Part shown: positions 427-34,692 of the stretch, piece by piece
Numbering within the stretch: the first letter of the stretch is position 1
Layout: each line of letters starts with the position of its first letter
Virus record (IMG/VR): IMGVR_UViG_3300011114_000680
Location: 1-34,692 of that record
Length of the DNA stretch: 34,692 bases
Reading direction: 5' to 3' (one strand)
Source of the DNA: a virus
Notes under the pieces: model-generated
What the model was told of the DNA's origin: nothing
Database searches by the model: none
What the model saw: only the letters and a program-made list of their open reading frames with translations
Translations under genes and position numbers: made by a program

Positions 427-455
427 TGACTCCCCTTGATTGCAAAGTGACATCA

Positions 456-484
456 ATTCTACCGATTGGGTTCTGTACATCCAA
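456..484 (-). promoter_or_regulatory. Leftward sigma70-like promoter for the RHH gene
   Basis: On the minus strand TTGGAT (484-479) is separated by 17 bp from TAGAAT (461-456). Transcription would start near 449, leaving a short leader with an AGGGGAG ribosome site before ATG 426. It lies about 50 bp from the rightward promoter and points away from it, so it is a natural start for the leftward transcript. Confidence 0.55.
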
Positions 485-530
485 CACCAAACAAGGGAAA
501 ACACCTACAAAATTGTCCAAAATAAGGGGC

Positions 531-560
531 TTGCACAGCTTTTGAGTTTTGTACTAGAAT
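531..560 (+). promoter_or_regulatory. Rightward sigma70-like promoter for the serine recombinase operon
   Basis: TTGCAC (531-536) is separated by 18 bp from TAGAAT (555-560), giving a start near 567. The GATATC dyad at 570-586 lies directly on or after the predicted start, a usual operator position. The recombinase ATG follows at 614 with GGAG at 604-607. Confidence 0.6.
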
Positions 561-568
561 TCATCCAA

Positions 569-587
569 CGATATCAATCCGATATCG
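569..587. promoter_or_regulatory. GATATC-N5-GATATC dyad, candidate operator
   Basis: Two GATATC palindromes (570-575 and 581-586) are separated by 5 bp and flanked to give inverted arms CGATATC / GATATCG. It sits just downstream of the rightward -10 box. An equally spaced pair occurs at 29403-29419 near another promoter. The RHH protein is a plausible ligand. A recombinase binding site is the alternative. Confidence 0.4.
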
Positions 588-613
588 GAACCACCGAGAT
601 ACAGGAGTTCAAT

Positions 614-1297
614 ATGTCAACACCCCACACCGGCAAATTTGTTGCCTACTACCGGGTCTCAACTGACCGCCAAGGCCAATCCGGCCTTGGCCTTGATGCG
701 CAGCGCCAGCTGGTAACCACGTTCCTCAACGGTGGCCGCTGGTCACTGATCGGTGAGTTCACCGAGATTGAGTCCGGCACCCGAAAGCGCCTCAAAGAAC
801 GCCCCATGCTACAGGCGGCTCTTGATCTGGCGCGCAAGCAGAAGGCCACCCTGGTGGTCGCCAAGCTGGATCGCCTGGCCCGTGATGTTGAGTTCATCAG
901 CACACTGCTCAACGGCAAGGTGCCATTCGTCTGTGCCGATATGCCAGAGGCCGACAAGACTTTCTTGCAGATGATGGCCGTGTTCGCTGAGTACGAAGCC
1001 AAACGCATCAGCGACCGCACCACGCAAGCGCTGGCGGCACTCAAGCGCCAGGGCAAAACGCTGGGATCACCCACGCCAGAAGTTGGCTCCGCTGCCGGTG
1101 TCAAAGTAATTCGCGCCAAAGCAGATGCTTATGCCGACAAGGTTGGCCCCATCGTGCGCGACATCATCAAGAAGTCGGGCGCTGATACCTTGCGCGATAT
1201 TGCCGAAGCCTTAACAGCTCGCGGTGTAGCCACCCCTCGCGGCCGCACCGATTGGTACCCCAGCCAGGTATCCAACTTGCTCAAAAGGATCAAGTGA
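614..1297 (+). CDS. Serine recombinase (resolvase/invertase family), 227 aa
   Basis: A site-specific recombinase of the small serine class, which cuts both strands through a 5'-phosphoserine link. The N-terminal catalytic domain (about 8-150) shows YYRVS with Arg14 and the nucleophile Ser16, and the D86-R-L-A-R90 motif. A short C-terminal helix-turn-helix (about 190-225) carries DIAEALTARGVATPRG, typical of resolvases. At 227 aa it is the size of resolvases and invertases, not of the roughly 500-aa large serine integrases. ATG 614 is chosen for its GGAG and for the conserved catalytic start soon after; the open frame upstream runs through the promoter. It is the only recombinase able to resolve multimers, invert DNA or integrate this phage. 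No inverted fibre segment is visible. Confidence 0.93.
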   Translation: MSTPHTGKFVAYYRVSTDRQGQSGLGLDAQRQLVTTFLNGGRWSLIGEFTEIESGTRKRLKERPMLQAALDLARKQKATLVVAKLDRLARDVEFISTLLNGKVPFVCADMPEADKTFLQMMAVFAEYEAKRISDRTTQALAALKRQGKTLGSPTPEVGSAAGVKVIRAKADAYADKVGPIVRDIIKKSGADTLRDIAEALTARGVATPRGRTDWYPSQVSNLLKRIK

Positions 1298-24871: not shown

Positions 24872-25131
24872 AGTTTCCTTGCTGTGTTGATCCGTACCTC
24901 GATGTCCCGCACCACCGTCCTTTGCCCTTCGGCAAAGAAGGCGTATGAGGGGTCTGTGCCCGGCACGGCGATGGGCACATTCACATACATGTCTTTGAGC
25001 CACTGAAGCAGCTTCTGGCCATCCTCAGAGCCAAACACCCGCAAGGTCAGACGCGCCAGATCCTCGCGCTGCTGGGCCACATCCCGGATGTCTTCGGTTT
25101 GGCCAATGGCATTGATCTCGTCCCAGCTCAT
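24868..25131 (-). CDS. Bbp19-like structural protein, 87 aa
   Basis: A small protein between portal and scaffold, overlapping both by ATGA. The segment LRVFGSEDGQKLLQWLKDMY (about 30-49) matches the core of the family named for Bbp19 of Bordetella phage BPP-1 (as I recall it), followed by FAEGQRTVVRDIEVRI. Its role in the particle is not established; position suggests head assembly. Confidence 0.8.
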   Translation of the reverse strand: MSWDEINAIGQTEDIRDVAQQREDLARLTLRVFGSEDGQKLLQWLKDMYVNVPIAVPGTDPSYAFFAEGQRTVVRDIEVRINTARKL

Positions 25132-26741
25132 GCCATGGCTCCCTGTGGCGCTGGCAGCGCAGGCATACCGGCACCGGCTTGTGCCTGCATGGCCATGGCT
25201 TGCGCGATGGCTTGCTGCTGCTGTTGGTTCTTCATCTCTTCCATGAGCACGGCACGCTCGGCTGCGGTGTTGCGCACAGAGGCAGGCACGCCCAGCTTGT
25301 CGGCCAGGTAGTCCACCAGCATGTCGGTCTTGATGGCCAACTGGCCATCAGTGCCCAGGCCCTGGCTGATCTGCAGGTACTGCATGATGGCGTTGACCTC
25401 TTCCATGTTCTGGGCCATGGCCAGCGGGGCCACAGGGGTAACTTTGACTTCCAGCCCGTTGACGCGCAGGGGCATGTCAATCAAGCCGCGCTCGTCCATC
25501 ACTTCCAAGATCTTGGCGGTGACCGGGATCATGGTCTCGTTGATCAAGCGGCCAAAGGCAGAGCCCAGGTTCTGGGCCAGCTCCTTCATGCGCTCCACGA
25601 TCTCGGTGGCAGACCTGGCGCTCATGTTGTCTGGCGGCAACGATTCGTCCAACAGGATGCGCTTGACGTTGCTGCGCAGGTCATTGATCACCAGCTGGCT
25701 GACGTTGAAGTCGCCAGAGCGGGGCAGGGGCAACAGGGCAGGGCCTTGCGAGCCACCATTGCGAGCCACGGGGATGATGGCACCAGGCACGATCTTGACT
25801 GTGTTGGGATTGAGCACCCCGTCGTCTGCAGCAGTGTAGACACCGGCCACGGCCAAGCTGGCGTTCTTGAGCAGCAGCTCGATGGTCTTGTTCAGCGTCT
25901 TGATGTCGGGCAGGGCGGTCATCAGGGGGCCACGGCCATAGATCTCACCGGCCACTTTCATGTAACGGCTGATCACCCATGGGCTCATCTTGCGACGGCG
26001 GTAGACCAATTCCTCTTTGGATACCTTGTCAATAACGTGGTAGCAGTAGTCGCCACGCTTGTGGTCGTAGATGGTGGCTTCCAGCAACTCAATGTCGTCA
26101 GTTGGCTTGTTGTCAATGCGACGCTGCAATTCGTCTGGAATGTTGGCATCTGGCCATTGACGTTGGATGCTTTCGGCCTTCATGCGCATGCGACGGTAGA
26201 CGTTGTCCACCTGGCCGTTCGCTCCTTCCTCATAGCTCACCAGGAAAAGCGGCACGGGAATGAAGTTGAGCGGCTGCACATCGTCGCCCGGCTGCACCAT
26301 CATGCAAGCAGTGCCCACAGCCAGGTCGAGCAAGAACTCACCCATGGCAATGTCAAAGTTGGACTGATTGAGCACGGTGAACATCTTGTCCTGGTAAACC
26401 TCCAGGATGGCTTGGGCCTGCTGCCTGCGGTCAGCTGGAATGTCTGAGCCAGCTTCCAGCTTTGCCCACTTGCGCTGCGGCGGGAACACAACCGATTGCA
26501 GCCGGTTGGCAAAGCGCTGGGTACTGTTGATCGCGGTCGAATCAAAGACGCGCTGCATCTTCTTGCTGCCGGTGGCACCCCCTTCCCACAACCCGTAGAG
26601 CTGGCGCTGGGGCAGGGCAAACTCGTAGGCATCCTGGTAGAGCTGCTGGAATTCGTCCTTCTTGCGCTGGGCGAGCTCCTGGCGTTTCAAGATCTGTTCT
26701 GGTGTGAGGCGCATGCCTCCGGATGTGTTGTTTGTTGCCAT
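25128..26741 (-). CDS. Portal (head-tail connector) protein, 537 aa
   Basis: T7 gp8-like dodecameric portal through which DNA is packaged. Typical features: KKDEFQQLYQDAYEFALPQR, DSTAINSTQRFANRLQSVVF, then PPQRKWAKLEAGSDIP; later YMKVAGEIYGRGPLMTALPD, IKTLNKTIELLLKNA, and SARSATEIVERMKELAQNLG. The C-terminus is Gln/Ala/Met-rich. Length equals T7 gp8 (536 aa). AAGGA lies 7 bases before the ATG. Confidence 0.96.
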   Translation of the reverse strand: MATNNTSGGMRLTPEQILKRQELAQRKKDEFQQLYQDAYEFALPQRQLYGLWEGGATGSKKMQRVFDSTAINSTQRFANRLQSVVFPPQRKWAKLEAGSDIPADRRQQAQAILEVYQDKMFTVLNQSNFDIAMGEFLLDLAVGTACMMVQPGDDVQPLNFIPVPLFLVSYEEGANGQVDNVYRRMRMKAESIQRQWPDANIPDELQRRIDNKPTDDIELLEATIYDHKRGDYCYHVIDKVSKEELVYRRRKMSPWVISRYMKVAGEIYGRGPLMTALPDIKTLNKTIELLLKNASLAVAGVYTAADDGVLNPNTVKIVPGAIIPVARNGGSQGPALLPLPRSGDFNVSQLVINDLRSNVKRILLDESLPPDNMSARSATEIVERMKELAQNLGSAFGRLINETMIPVTAKILEVMDERGLIDMPLRVNGLEVKVTPVAPLAMAQNMEEVNAIMQYLQISQGLGTDGQLAIKTDMLVDYLADKLGVPASVRNTAAERAVLMEEMKNQQQQQAIAQAMAMQAQAGAGMPALPAPQGAMA

Positions 26742-31258: not shown

Positions 31259-31440
31259 GCGCCTCTCCCTGTTTGATCCATCATGACTGTTCGTGCCAAG
31301 GCTTCACAGGTTTGACATGGCTGTGCCAAGGCTTCTTTGATGGCGGTGATGGCCTCCTCTGTTGGTTGGTGCAATTTTCCATGCACATCCCAGTATTCCA
31401 ACGCCTCAAGCGCAATCTTCAATGCCTCATCTTTTGTCAT
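31255..31440 (-). CDS. Small accessory protein, 61 aa
   Basis: Starts in an ATGA overlap with the small terminase stop. The sequence MTKDEALKIALEALEYWDVH, then EEAITAIKEALAQP matches a widespread type of small phage accessory protein of unknown function. Helical and acidic. A CQTC pair follows. Confidence 0.75.
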   Translation of the reverse strand: MTKDEALKIALEALEYWDVHGKLHQPTEEAITAIKEALAQPCQTCEALARTVMMDQTGRGA

Positions 31441-31856
31441 GCTTGTTCTCCTCTTGGTGCCACCACATTGATGTCAATCACTGATGGCTTGTCATCCTGG
31501 TCAGGGTTGTCTAACAGACCACTGGCCTTAGCCAGCAGTCGCAAAACACCCACCTTGTCATACAGCTCAATCTCCAACGTGCTGTTGCCGTCCTTGTCAG
31601 TCCGCACACGCACGTTCTTGATCGCCTGCAGCGCATGGTCAGGTATATCGCTGGCACGCTTGACACGCACATTGCCAGCATCATCCCAATCCATGATGTC
31701 TGTGATCTTGGTGTTGGCCATGCAAAGCAGCGCATAAGCCACCGCCTCACGGTTGGCCACAATGGTGCTAGAACGCTCCAGCCTCCTTTGCACAGACCTC
31801 ACCCCACCCCAGTTTGTCAGGGGCGGGATCACATTGGTTTGCTTCGGTCTTGCCAT
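31437..31856 (-). CDS. terS: Terminase small subunit-like protein, 139 aa
   Basis: It lies upstream of the large subunit and has the expected size. A basic N-terminus with a likely helix-turn-helix (GVRSVQRRLERSSTIVANRE) is followed by ITDIMDWDDAGNVRVKRASD and IPDHALQAIKNVRVRTDKDG, a common pattern in small subunits of the Terminase_2 type. It would bind the packaging site. TGATG overlap with the OB-fold gene. Confidence 0.75.
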   Translation of the reverse strand: MARPKQTNVIPPLTNWGGVRSVQRRLERSSTIVANREAVAYALLCMANTKITDIMDWDDAGNVRVKRASDIPDHALQAIKNVRVRTDKDGNSTLEIELYDKVGVLRLLAKASGLLDNPDQDDKPSVIDINVVAPRGEQA

Positions 31857-32119
31857 CAGAAGGGTATATCGTCATCGTTGTCCGGCACCATCGCCTTAGC
31901 CTGCGCATACGGCTGGCCACCACCCTGCTGCTGGCACAGGTCACCAATGGCCAGGCTGATCCAGGGCTCACCAGCGCTGGTCTTCTTGCTCCAGCCAGAC
32001 ACCCAGCGCACCTCACCGTTGGGCAGCATCACCCTGCCTTTCAAGTTCGGTTGGCGCTCCTCTGTCCTCTTGTCGTTCTTGAACAGGCTGCCCTGTCCAG
32101 CTCTCATCTCGTATGCCAT
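31856..32119 (-). CDS. OB-fold / single-strand-binding-like protein, 87 aa
   Basis: ATG 32119 follows AAGGAG with 6 bases; the frame upstream is in non-coding G-rich DNA. The start MAYEMRAGQGSLFKNDKRTE and NLKGRVMLPNGEVRWVSGWS resemble DUF736-like small OB-fold proteins, while the end PDNDDDIPF is the acidic tip by which single-strand-binding proteins recruit partners. Likely a phage SSB for the recombination and replication genes. Confidence 0.7.
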   Translation of the reverse strand: MAYEMRAGQGSLFKNDKRTEERQPNLKGRVMLPNGEVRWVSGWSKKTSAGEPWISLAIGDLCQQQGGGQPYAQAKAMVPDNDDDIPF

Positions 32120-32461
32120 CAAATGCTCCTTTTGGTGATTGTTACAAAAAAGTGGGGAAAATTTTGGGGAGGGCCCCGGTCGCCAGCGGTAGGGGGGAGG
32201 GGGCAAGGGTGCCGATTTCTACCCGGCTGCAGACCGACGACCGCCAGCGCCACCGCAGGCAGCATGCAGGCCTGGCACCGCCAGCAGCCAGACACCCCTC
32301 GATCTGCCCAGGCTGTACAAAATCCATACGTTCGTCTGCGATTTGGACAGACAGAATTACAGGCTCTACAACGCACCGAAAGGTCGAGTGGCTACCTACC
32401 CCTTGACCCGCCTTAGATCGTGGCTGGAAGGCTGGTTTCTGTGGCTTGGCGAGGCATTGGC
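32120..32461. other. 342-bp gap with G-runs, no convincing gene
   Basis: Between the initiator stop and the OB-fold start. The part 32152-32209 has runs of 4-6 G on the plus strand and an AAAATTTT core flanked by GGGG. A GTG-started frame (32119-32376, minus) opens with several Cys (CRACNSVC, YGFC) but has no ribosome site and runs into the G-runs, so I do not call it. A leftward promoter is expected here but no clear pair was found. A GGGG/CCCC stem before AAAATTTT on the minus strand is a weak terminator candidate. Confidence 0.5.
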
Positions 32462-33388
32462 TCATCGGACATCTGCCTGCAACTGCCGGATGCCAGCGAT
32501 CAGGACGGCGCTGCTGGGCTCGATACCCTCGGCCTTGTACAGCGGCAGCAGGGTGTCCAGGTTGTCGGCGATCTGCTTGGCTGTCATGCCTTCCGCGATC
32601 AACTCGTCAACTCCGACGATGCCTAAAACAGAATTCAGACTTGTTAATAACTCCTTACTTATATCCTGACTGTTACTAGTGTTCCCTGTGTTTCTCGCTA
32701 CCTCTGGATGTTGCCTATCATGTTGCCTATGTGATGAGTTATCCACAGCCTGTTGGTTGCTCTCATTGGCTACCTCTGGATGTTGCTTATGAGTGCCTTT
32801 GGATTGGTGCTTTTTGATGGCTTCCTTCATCTCTTTGACTGTCCTGGTTTCGCCTGTTTTTGGCATGTTGTAGACCTTTGTGGTTGGCTGCTTGAGTACT
32901 TTGCTGATTGCTTGGGCGACCCTGCGTTGGCCCTCTGGATCTGGCTGTTCTGCTTGCATGACTTGCTCCTTCTTGATGGCTGGTGGCCTGGTGTCTTCCT
33001 GCGGGCTGGTGATGGCCATGGCATCTTCTGCGCTCATGGTCGGATCGAATATGACCCTGAGCGTGTTGGATCGCTCGCCTCTGAAACCCTTGCGGATGAT
33101 CTCCACATAACCCGTGTCTCTGAGCTTGGCGATCTGCCTGGTGATGGCTTGGCGACTGAGCTTGAGGTCTTGCGCGAGTCTGGCCTGGCTCACCCAGGTG
33201 ATCCCAGCCCGGTTGCAGTAGCTGCACAGCACGATCAGAGCTCTGAGCGTTGCCCCATGCAGCCGCTCGTCTGTGCCAGCCCTGATCGGAATGACCGCCA
33301 AGCTGCGCTGATCCGGCGGCGCGTCCTTCTCTTTGATGCGCGGCTTCTTGGGCAGGTGAAATACAACCTGGTCAGGCATGGCACTCAT
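32462..33388 (-). CDS. Replication initiator-like winged-helix protein, 308 aa
   Basis: A winged helix-turn-helix domain (about 44-115) includes ITWVSQARLAQDLKLSRQAI and TRQIAKLRDTGYVEIIRKGF, as in phage replication proteins of the lambda O/RepA kind. A long Gln/Lys/His-rich linker (about 150-235) and a helical C-terminal domain (SKELLTSLNSVLGIVGVDEL) follow. The linker DNA holds iterons, a DnaA box and an AT-rich stretch, as in lambda O. ATG 33388 is chosen for its ATGA overlap; ATG 33403 is possible. It probably loads host helicase at that origin. Confidence 0.78.
   Translation of the reverse strand: MSAMPDQVVFHLPKKPRIKEKDAPPDQRSLAVIPIRAGTDERLHGATLRALIVLCSYCNRAGITWVSQARLAQDLKLSRQAITRQIAKLRDTGYVEIIRKGFRGERSNTLRVIFDPTMSAEDAMAITSPQEDTRPPAIKKEQVMQAEQPDPEGQRRVAQAISKVLKQPTTKVYNMPKTGETRTVKEMKEAIKKHQSKGTHKQHPEVANESNQQAVDNSSHRQHDRQHPEVARNTGNTSNSQDISKELLTSLNSVLGIVGVDELIAEGMTAKQIADNLDTLLPLYKAEGIEPSSAVLIAGIRQLQADVR
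32629..32690. other. AT-rich stretch, candidate DNA-unwinding element
   Basis: Clearly richer in A and T than its surroundings, with TTGTTAATAACTCC and TTACTTATATCC. It is on the 3' side of the initiator linker, adjacent to the iterons and DnaA box. Its position fits the melting region of an origin. Confidence 0.5.
32697..32790. repeat. Origin iterons: TGTTGC(C/T)TAT three times, in two GCTACCTCTGGATGTTGC units
   Basis: TGTTGCCTAT occurs at 32709 and 32721, and TGTTGCTTAT at 32781; spacings are 12 and 60 bp. Two 18-bp copies of GCTACCTCTGGATGTTGC begin at 32697 and 32769, 72 bp apart. The repeats code for QHPEVA-type repeats of the initiator linker, so part of the repetition could reflect the protein. 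Confidence 0.6.
32739..32747 (+). promoter_or_regulatory. Perfect DnaA box (TTATCCACA)
   Basis: A consensus DnaA-binding nonamer lies between the iterons and beside the AT-rich stretch. A chance match in one place of a 34-kb genome is possible, but its position inside the initiator gene and between iterons supports a working origin that uses host DnaA. Confidence 0.65.
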
Positions 33389-33678
33389 TTGCTCGCCTTC
33401 CAAAGCGCTGTGACCAGTTGTGCCAGCTCATTGGCTGCAGCCTCTCCGCGCTGGTCTTTGACCGACAGGATGTAGTCCCGCCTGCTGATCTGCGGTGTTG
33501 ACTTGCGCCTGCGGTTGACCGTGACCGGCAGCGTGTCCAGCACCCACTTGGCTTCGGTGTAGGCGCGGTATTGCAGGCTGTAGTTGCCCACCTGGCTGCC
33601 GTCGGGCAGCGTGATGAGCCTGGCATCTGGGTGCTGCTTGCCGCATGCATGGCAGGTGAGCTCATCTGCCAAGTACAC
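33385..33678 (-). CDS. Small CxxC hypothetical protein, 97 aa
   Basis: The frame is open to ATG 33768, but that would overlap the RHH gene by over 100 bp, so GTG 33678 is preferred, giving a 17-base overlap. Contains TCHACGKQHPDARLI with one CxxC pair, GNYSLQYRAYTEAKWVLDTL and a basic stretch (VNRRRKSTPQISRRDY). It lies just before the initiator. No known family; it may bind metal or DNA. The start is uncertain. Confidence 0.6.
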   Translation of the reverse strand: MYLADELTCHACGKQHPDARLITLPDGSQVGNYSLQYRAYTEAKWVLDTLPVTVNRRRKSTPQISRRDYILSVKDQRGEAAANELAQLVTALWKASK

Positions 33679-34058: not shown

Positions 34059-34159
34059 CACTCGATCTCCAAGAATTTCAGCATCGCCCACAGCGCCAGC
34101 AAGGTGATGAGCGAGCCCAGCAACATCAGCAAAACAACCCAAAAAACAGTCATCAACAT
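34058..34159 (-). CDS. Small membrane peptide, 33 aa
   Basis: ATG 34159 has an excellent GGAGG site 7 bases upstream, lying in the resolvase end. Nearly the whole peptide is hydrophobic (VFWVVLLMLLGSLITLLALW), then a short charged end KFLEIE, that is, one membrane helix. Coupled to both neighbours by overlaps. It may affect the host membrane early in infection; no family recognised. Confidence 0.6.
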   Translation of the reverse strand: MLMTVFWVVLLMLLGSLITLLALWAMLKFLEIE

Positions 34160-34620
34160 AATTCCACCTCCAAAGCCCAATGCAGCAGTGCCAGCGCGTC
34201 TGCTTCGTTGTCGTCTGTCACCGGATGGCCACGCAGTTGCATGGCCTCGACCATGGCCAGCTTGTCAGCGTTGCCCCTGCCGGTCGCGTGCTTCTTGATG
34301 GTGCCCACCGGCACGCCCTGGTAAGGGATCTTGTGCTGCTCGCACCAGGCTGTGAGCGTGGCCATCAAGCCACCGTAAACGTGAGCCGAGTCGGTGCTGG
34401 CATGCCGCCTGACCTCTTCAAAGTAGACGGCCTGCAGCTCGCCATTAAGCGTGCCGTTGAGCTGGCCAAGCCACTGCTTGAAGCGCAGATAGCGCATGCC
34501 GCCACCTTCGTACCTGGTTGGCTTAAAGCTGGCCCAGCCGTGGACGATGATGCCGTCCATGGGTCTGCAGGCCCAGCCAGTGGTGGTGCCCAGGTCAAGC
34601 GCCAGCACCTGCTCATTCAT
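34153..34620 (-). CDS. RuvC-like Holliday junction resolvase, 155 aa
   Basis: Cuts branched DNA left by recombination and replication so that it can be packaged. The RNase H-like motifs are visible: LALDLGTTTGWA with Asp9, AVYFEEV with Glu68/69, and TDDNEADALAL with acidic ligands near 136-141. Full length for the phage type. In the first block of the leftward operon, it complements the exonuclease/RecT pair on the other arm. Confidence 0.9.
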   Translation of the reverse strand: MNEQVLALDLGTTTGWACRPMDGIIVHGWASFKPTRYEGGGMRYLRFKQWLGQLNGTLNGELQAVYFEEVRRHASTDSAHVYGGLMATLTAWCEQHKIPYQGVPVGTIKKHATGRGNADKLAMVEAMQLRGHPVTDDNEADALALLHWALEVELC

Positions 34621-34692
34621 CTGCAGGCTCCTGGTTCAGGGCAGGGCAGATGTCGCCCGTGGCCATGAGCGCGAGCTCGACCAGGTACCCTG
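34510..34692. repeat. Terminal direct repeat, right copy
   Basis: Matches 1-183 except at 34636 and 34688. The end copy cuts the 45-aa gene after its first bases. See the left copy for interpretation. Confidence 0.93.

Follow-up and report, generated by a model that had tools for sequence, protein, structure and literature searches.

A probable replication origin, with iterons that covary with the recognition helix of their initiator, inside the initiator gene of a T7-like podovirus

The stretch of DNA analysed here, hereafter the window, comprises the 34,692 bases of IMG/VR record IMGVR_UViG_3300011114_000680, which represents a freshwater-type phage. Because its last 183 bases (34510–34692) repeat the first 183 (1–183) with two mismatches, at 34636 and 34688, the window is probably a complete genome of approximately 34.5 kb; such a repeat points to a genome that is closed or has redundant termini, with variation between strains. 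The virion genes are T7-like and encode a connector, a major capsid protein, two tail tubular-like proteins, and an internal virion protein. The initial annotation had described a phage with T7-like virion genes and no polymerase or helicase of its own, and this is borne out by the annotated open reading frames (ORFs): among those searched, which covered the small ORFs in part, no polymerase, primase or helicase was found and none matched a P-type or DnaC-like helicase loader. The surroundings of the initiator gene encode a single-strand DNA binding protein (SSB), terminase, a RuvC-like resolvase, a RecE-like exonuclease, a RecT-like annealing protein, and a serine recombinase. The genes referred to below are:

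440–1297, plus strand: serine recombinase (Resolvase PF00239 plus a weak Recombinase PF07508 match)
31437–31856: terminase small subunit, near the proposed origin
31856–32206, minus strand: SSB, beside the initiator gene (PHROG, 1.2e-8)
32462–33403, minus strand: winged-helix replication initiator gene, 313 amino acids from TTG
34153–34620, minus strand: RuvC-like Holliday junction resolvase (PHROG, 1.7e-27)

The serine recombinase, which lies on the plus strand with the RecE/RecT-like genes, could indicate a temperate lifestyle or serve as an invertase. In a scan with the portal gene (25128–26741), a 4.2-kb contig binned as Rhodoferax was 93% identical and a 3.4-kb contig binned as Rhodobacteraceae was 88% identical (L294 and L295), which is a weak hint of the host; the bins of short viral contigs are poor host evidence. 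Among 84,980 bacterial and archaeal genomes scanned with a profile, no relative of the initiator was recovered, so that the gene offers no connection to a host or prophage; a plasmid search returned weak helix-turn-helix (HTH) matches only, on two Skermanella replicons.

The likelier start of the initiator gene is the ATG at 33388, which has GGAAGG ahead of it and yields a protein of 308 amino acids. In a Pfam scan the protein matches HTH_36 (PF13730, 2.7e-8) along with other HTH families, and it also matches PHROG families annotated as 'replication initiation protein' and 'replication initiation O-like' (6e-10 to 7e-8), of which two O-like families, PHROG 678 and 391, match the winged-helix part and the linker (6–7e-8). 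Confidence in the AlphaFold model of the whole protein is low (pTM 0.36). A Foldseek search with the modelled winged helix gave 4pql, 4pt7 and 5kbj as its best PDB matches, with weak scores (E 2.7e-3 to 1.4e-2) and many repressors similar; we take these three entries, which Foldseek names only as initiator or Rep, to be RepA_N proteins. The linker is predicted with pLDDT below 50 over residues 210–247, and the iterons fall in residues ~204–236. The C-terminal domain is a three-helix unit for which the fold search returned no significant PDB neighbour and no DnaD-like match, and it is the candidate part for recruiting the host helicase or primase. A promoter scan found nothing. Within the gene lie the following features:

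33044–33286, minus strand: winged-helix DNA-binding domain, residues 40–120 (helices and wing in the AlphaFold model)
33152–33154, minus strand: Arg84 codon, first specificity residue of the recognition helix (residues 84–97), from covariation
33137–33139, minus strand: Arg89 codon, second specificity residue of the recognition helix, from covariation
32769–32790, plus strand: palindromic iteron 3, GCTACCTCTGGATGTTGCTTAT, from repeat search and relatives
32739–32747, plus strand: perfect DnaA box, TTATCCACA, the sole perfect match in the window
32720–32730, plus strand: direct half-site iteron 2, ATGTTGCCTAT, 12 bp past the right arm of iteron 1, a spacing conserved in relatives
32697–32718, plus strand: palindromic iteron 1, GCTACCTCTGGATGTTGCCTAT, from repeat search, its position kept in relatives
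32619–32690, no strand assigned: AT-rich stretch in frame in the initiator gene, a candidate DNA unwinding element
32465–32656, minus strand: C-terminal helical domain, residues 250–313, a confident fold (pLDDT 91.7)

The iteron sequence ATGTTGCCTAT occurs at 32708–32718 and 32720–32730 and ATGTTGCTTAT at 32780–32790, and besides these three iterons no exact match to ATGTTGCYTAT occurs in the 34,692 bases. The initial annotation had reported the iterons, the perfect DnaA box and the AT-rich stretch, and all are confirmed at the positions claimed. The internal palindrome of the iterons is new: repeats 1 and 3 are part of a 22-bp unit, GCTACCTCTGGATGTTGC[C/T]TAT, whose copies at 32697–32718 and 32769–32790 are identical at 21 of 22 positions and are both imperfect palindromes, and repeat 2 is a lone half-site. 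The AT-rich stretch originally delimited, 32629–32690, ranks in the top 1.6% of the 62-base windows of this DNA for AT content, and the most AT-rich 62-base window starts at 32619 (68% AT, top 0.2%). When the initiator gene was subjected to 200 synonymous-codon shuffles, its 60-nt AT maximum (70%) was reached in none and a perfect DnaA box arose at a rate of 0.025 per shuffle. Near-boxes number two in the whole window, below the chance mean of 4.7, for which reason we do not regard the DnaA box by itself as proof.

Relatives of the initiator were sought in viral contigs, where 221 were confirmed when the window protein served as query and 472 when a profile was used; 80 of the 221 and 80 of the 472 were retained, and the genes thus assembled were reduced to 137 unique ones. 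The iteron and AT-rich block is retained inside the initiator gene in these relatives. With close relatives included, the full genes contain 307 half-sites as opposed to 56.6 (maximum 78) in synonymous shuffles, and the AT-rich 60-nt maximum exceeds that of the shuffles (p<0.05) in all 123 full-length genes. The initial annotation had held that iterons lost from relatives despite a conserved protein linker would speak against an origin; we found the reverse, in that relatives retain the iterons, which vary in step with the recognition helix, and the linker amino acids that they encode vary with iteron type (HPEVA, NPEVV or HSGVS). This bears on the explanation that a conserved linker peptide produces the repeats and the box incidentally, which draws on their being in-frame codons (HRQ, HPEVA and VDN). 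Synonymous shuffles fail to reproduce the repeats and the box, the encoded peptides vary as described, and the box lies on the other strand in four relatives (L062, L066, L068 and L076); the shuffles and the opposite-strand boxes rule out chance or a by-product of coding, and we consider this explanation hardly credible.

The iterons of the relatives can be assigned to five types: A, GCAACC...GGTTGC; B, ACAACC...GGTTGT; C, GGACACT...AGTGTCC; D, GTCAACC...GGTTGAC; and E, GACAAC...TGTTGTC. One tabulation of palindromes, which was noisy for type B, was left out of the counts. Across the 137 unique genes, residue 84 of the initiator predicts the last base of the half-site GGTTGX (Arg with C, Gln with T, and Lys with A), and residue 89 predicts the core (Lys or Arg with GTTG, and Asn with AGTGT). 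Lys84 is paired with A in 12 of 12 genes, Gln84 with T in 42 of 43, and Arg84 with C both where residue 89 is Lys or Arg (27 of 27) and where it is Asn (25 of 25, with an AGTGT or GGTGT core in 23); the divergent helix KQQVARA is paired with T (GTTGT) in all 23 genes that have it. By half-site count this residue-to-base rule holds in 129 of 130 genes. The exception, L154, proved to be a counting error, as its true iterons are of type B and the C site counted is a stray AGTTGCCTAAT near the end of the gene. Six groups outside the set from which the rule was derived (L148, L152/L156, L160, L163, L175 and L286–L292) all fit it. Among 115 variable columns of the domain, column 84 is the best predictor of base X (adjusted mutual information, AMI, 0.73; the next, column 88, is also in the helix and scores 0.65), and column 89 is the best predictor of a GTTG versus an AGTGT core (AMI 0.69; next 0.35).

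Two further observations concern the iteron types. In a distant clade (L088–L111 and L190–L234), palindromic iterons and an AT-rich stretch are kept together with the helix KQQVARA and the half-site TGTTGTC, and there is no DnaA box. Type C loci (L002, L013, L018 and L037) often retain an A-type half-site 2, GGTTGCCTAT, between C-type palindromes, which the simple rule leaves unexplained and which could reflect mixed specificity or a fossil.

Because similar sequences are not independent, we built a tree without the helix and linker columns (80 rows, 130 columns). On this helix-free tree 12 changes were counted for helix class, and the same number for iteron type. Well-supported branches provide seven independent pairs for Gln, four for Asn and three for Lys, all of which change as predicted and none against; in a sign test only the Gln set can reach significance (p about 0.016–0.03), the Asn and Lys sets being too few alone. 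In one of the clearest pairs, L037, L085 and L087 (helix RQAITNQ, type C) lie beside L062 and L076 (QQAISKH, type B), the former being 69–76% identical to L076. In the other, L237 (KQAISKQLVKL, GTTGAC) and L286–L292 (RQAISKQLVKL, GTTGC) differ in a single helix residue and the matching base.

As helix and iterons covary, the comparison identifies the initiator as the predicted cognate binder of the iterons and its recognition helix as the element that would read them. The contact geometry of winged-helix recognition helices is well established in general terms, and it is on this knowledge that the placement of residues 84 and 89 on the DNA rests, given the low confidence of the whole-protein model. 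We consider it reasonably probable that these relationships constitute a recognition code that has been used repeatedly, in which residue 84 (Arg, Gln or Lys) reads the base C, T or A and residue 89 (Lys/Arg or Asn) reads the rest of the half-site. Protein and sites would switch specificity jointly because they share one gene, and DnaA boxes would be added or lost independently. If true, such a code would yield many mutually compatible replicon types.

Two other functions that the repeats might have were considered. A recombination or packaging site for the serine recombinase or the terminase small subunit would accord with the presence of both genes and the nearness of the latter, but the sites covary with the initiator's own recognition helix and not merely with the genome, and the related phage MEP301 has a resolvase, TerS and TerL yet is without the repeats; we regard such a site as very unlikely. 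Iterons that are no origin but operators through which the initiator regulates its own gene would suit a fold shared with repressors, and neither a promoter nor evidence of replication was found in the sequence. Their location in the middle of a coding region, beside an AT-rich stretch and often with DnaA boxes, is at odds with this role, as are the grouping of the protein with replication initiators in PHROG and the fact that the phage has no other origin-binding protein, and we consider autoregulation an unlikely function.

The initial annotation had further predicted a host-DnaA-dependent phage. In the first 80 loci, close relatives included, the 74.5 kb inside the initiator gene contain 48 perfect DnaA boxes and the 346.8 kb of flanking DNA contain none. 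Enrichment was assessed on 71 dissimilar full genes, 58 from the window's clade and 13 distant. The clade genes have 27 perfect boxes, distributed over 24 of the 58, against 1.85 expected (largest value 6; 300 synonymous shuffles), and 78 boxes with at most one mismatch against 20.7 in shuffles, although some one-mismatch boxes, TTATCTACA, belong to the flank of type B iterons and may be something other than boxes. No DnaA box occurs in the 13 distant genes, though iterons and AT-rich stretch are kept, and five of the window's nearest relatives (L003, L005, L010, L017 and L113) have none even at one mismatch. Box presence is patchy, with about 11 changes on the tree, and the position and strand of the box vary among relatives. 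L160, which has a related helix, has a box, and L064, L240 and L245 have two or three. In L240, L243 and L245, which have K-type initiators, one to three perfect boxes are clustered just beyond the last palindrome.

The enrichment within the clade gives the predicted DnaA dependence partial support, and the patchiness of the boxes and their absence from five near relatives and the distant clade count against this dependence, which is the weakest of the claims made initially. For the latter reasons DnaA is better regarded as a putative auxiliary than as central to the design, and the missing box in the nearest relatives argues against a strict need for DnaA in the family. An alternative would have the initiator bind the iterons and open the DNA alone, as lambda O does, with the DnaA box an optional add-on or weak regulator that comes and goes. 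The box-less relatives, the roughly 11 gains or losses and the shifting position and strand all speak for firing without DnaA; on the other side, perfect boxes are enriched about 15 times over shuffles, are restricted to the origin, with none in the 347 kb of flanking DNA, and occur two or three to a gene in some loci. We regard firing without DnaA as quite possible, if somewhat short of an even chance.

The architecture of iterons and unwinding element in the linker segment, the enrichment of its sites, and the covariation of helix and iterons, all drawn from comparison of sequences, argue for an origin inside the initiator gene, as proposed initially, the covariation strongly so. Cumulative GC skew, suggested as a check on that proposal, gave no support: over positions 1–34510 its range is significant, but the maximum (31.1 kb), not the minimum (9.3 kb), lies near the site, 1.6 kb away, a sign opposite to that usual for an origin at 32.7 kb, and the skew is confounded by gene direction. 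Overall, this is very probably the site at which a T7-like podovirus starts replication with a replisome borrowed from its host. That iteron binding would start replication here we infer from the family of the initiator, from the DnaA boxes and the AT-rich stretch beside the iterons, and from the fact that the phage has no other replication protein.

In the mechanism that we propose, of which the dimer stoichiometry, the contribution of DnaA and the role of the C-terminal domain are likewise predictions, a single phage initiator would bind the two palindromic iterons as dimers through its N-terminal winged helix, and a monomer or a further dimer would occupy the half-site, all of these sites lying within the DNA that codes for the disordered linker of the same protein. 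Binding would strain the AT-rich stretch at 32619–32690 and lead to its opening. Where a DnaA box is present, as in the window, host DnaA may aid opening or helicase loading. The C-terminal helical domain would then recruit the host helicase or primase, since none was found in the phage, and the phage SSB, RecE/RecT-like proteins and RuvC could serve later, recombination-linked replication.

For a large group of T7-like podoviruses, most of them uncultured, these results indicate where replication probably starts and by what probable strategy it proceeds; one scan alone confirmed 472 stretches that encode the initiator, and in the only annotated relative the gene is listed as hypothetical. The pairing of helix and iteron is directly testable because single amino-acid and single-base changes go together across relatives, so that the question of how replicon specificity evolves without broken replication becomes a defined test, with a single residue, a single base, many natural variants, and independent switches. 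Gain and loss of the DnaA box at the same origin also let the contribution of host DnaA be compared within one family.

Searches of the open-access literature, which takes in few subscription journals, found no description of such an origin or recognition code, and are weak evidence that none exists. Of the annotated phages, only the Methylophilales (OM43) phage MEP301, a cultured distant relative, has an initiator homologue that can be recognised (41% over 119 amino acids), and it resembles the window in its gene order, resolvase, YqaJ recombinase, SSB, and absence of a polymerase. The MEP301 paper notes that a polymerase is absent, and no description of an origin was found in it (PMC8024684). 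Unlike the window initiator, the MEP301 homologue is an unannotated hypothetical protein encoded by a shorter gene with a short linker and without iterons or DnaA box; an embedded site is therefore not a feature of every member of the protein family.

Among iteron plasmids with DnaA boxes (P1 oriR and F), iterons, AT-rich stretch and DnaA box are close together, as they are here. The origin of P1/F-type plasmids lies outside the initiator coding region, whereas that of the window lies within it, and the window initiator has no Rep_3 match. At the P1 plasmid origin one DnaA box suffices (Abeles 1990, as cited in PMC5043065), and the iterons of iteron plasmids bind monomers (PMC5043065).

A further comparison is with RepA_N plasmid initiators. 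The Rep boxes of pSK41 are central in rep and encode a dispensable linker between the winged helix and a host-interacting domain, the chimeric Rep of pPR9 carries a PF13730 HTH head, and DnaA boxes have not been detected in the staphylococcal plasmids (PMC5703833). The window initiator shares a modelled N-terminal winged helix and origin boxes in the linker-coding segment with pSK41 and pTZ2162, and membership of the PF13730 family with pPR9 Rep; a C-terminal host-interaction domain is a RepA_N feature with a predicted counterpart in the window. It differs in having no match to the RepA_N domain in the Pfam scan, a weak structural score (E 2.7e-3), and a three-helix C-terminal domain with no DnaD-like match.

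In lambda the AT-rich tract lies 3' of the iterons in the gene sense. The window has the same layout, its iterons and AT-rich tract being central in the initiator gene with the tract 3' in the gene sense, and the winged-helix part of its protein matches the PHROG O-like families. As in the window, ori-lambda lies inside the initiator gene, and its iterons, which are imperfect inverted repeats accompanied by an AT-rich tract, are bound by O dimers (PMC7466680, PMC5043065); the covariation suggests that the window initiator would likewise bind its iterons. Unlike ori-lambda, which has four iterons, the window has two palindromes and one half-site, an array of four or more equivalent palindromes being absent, and its DnaA box lies inside the iteron array. 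DnaA acts in lambda through pR transcription and competition for DnaB (PMC7466680). The window also differs from lambda in that no P-type loader was found in it and its virion is T7-like, not that of a siphovirus. Because four iterons and a P gene are missing, as is a RepA_N match, we file the system as neither, and in its working it is like both lambda O/ori-lambda and the RepA_N initiators.
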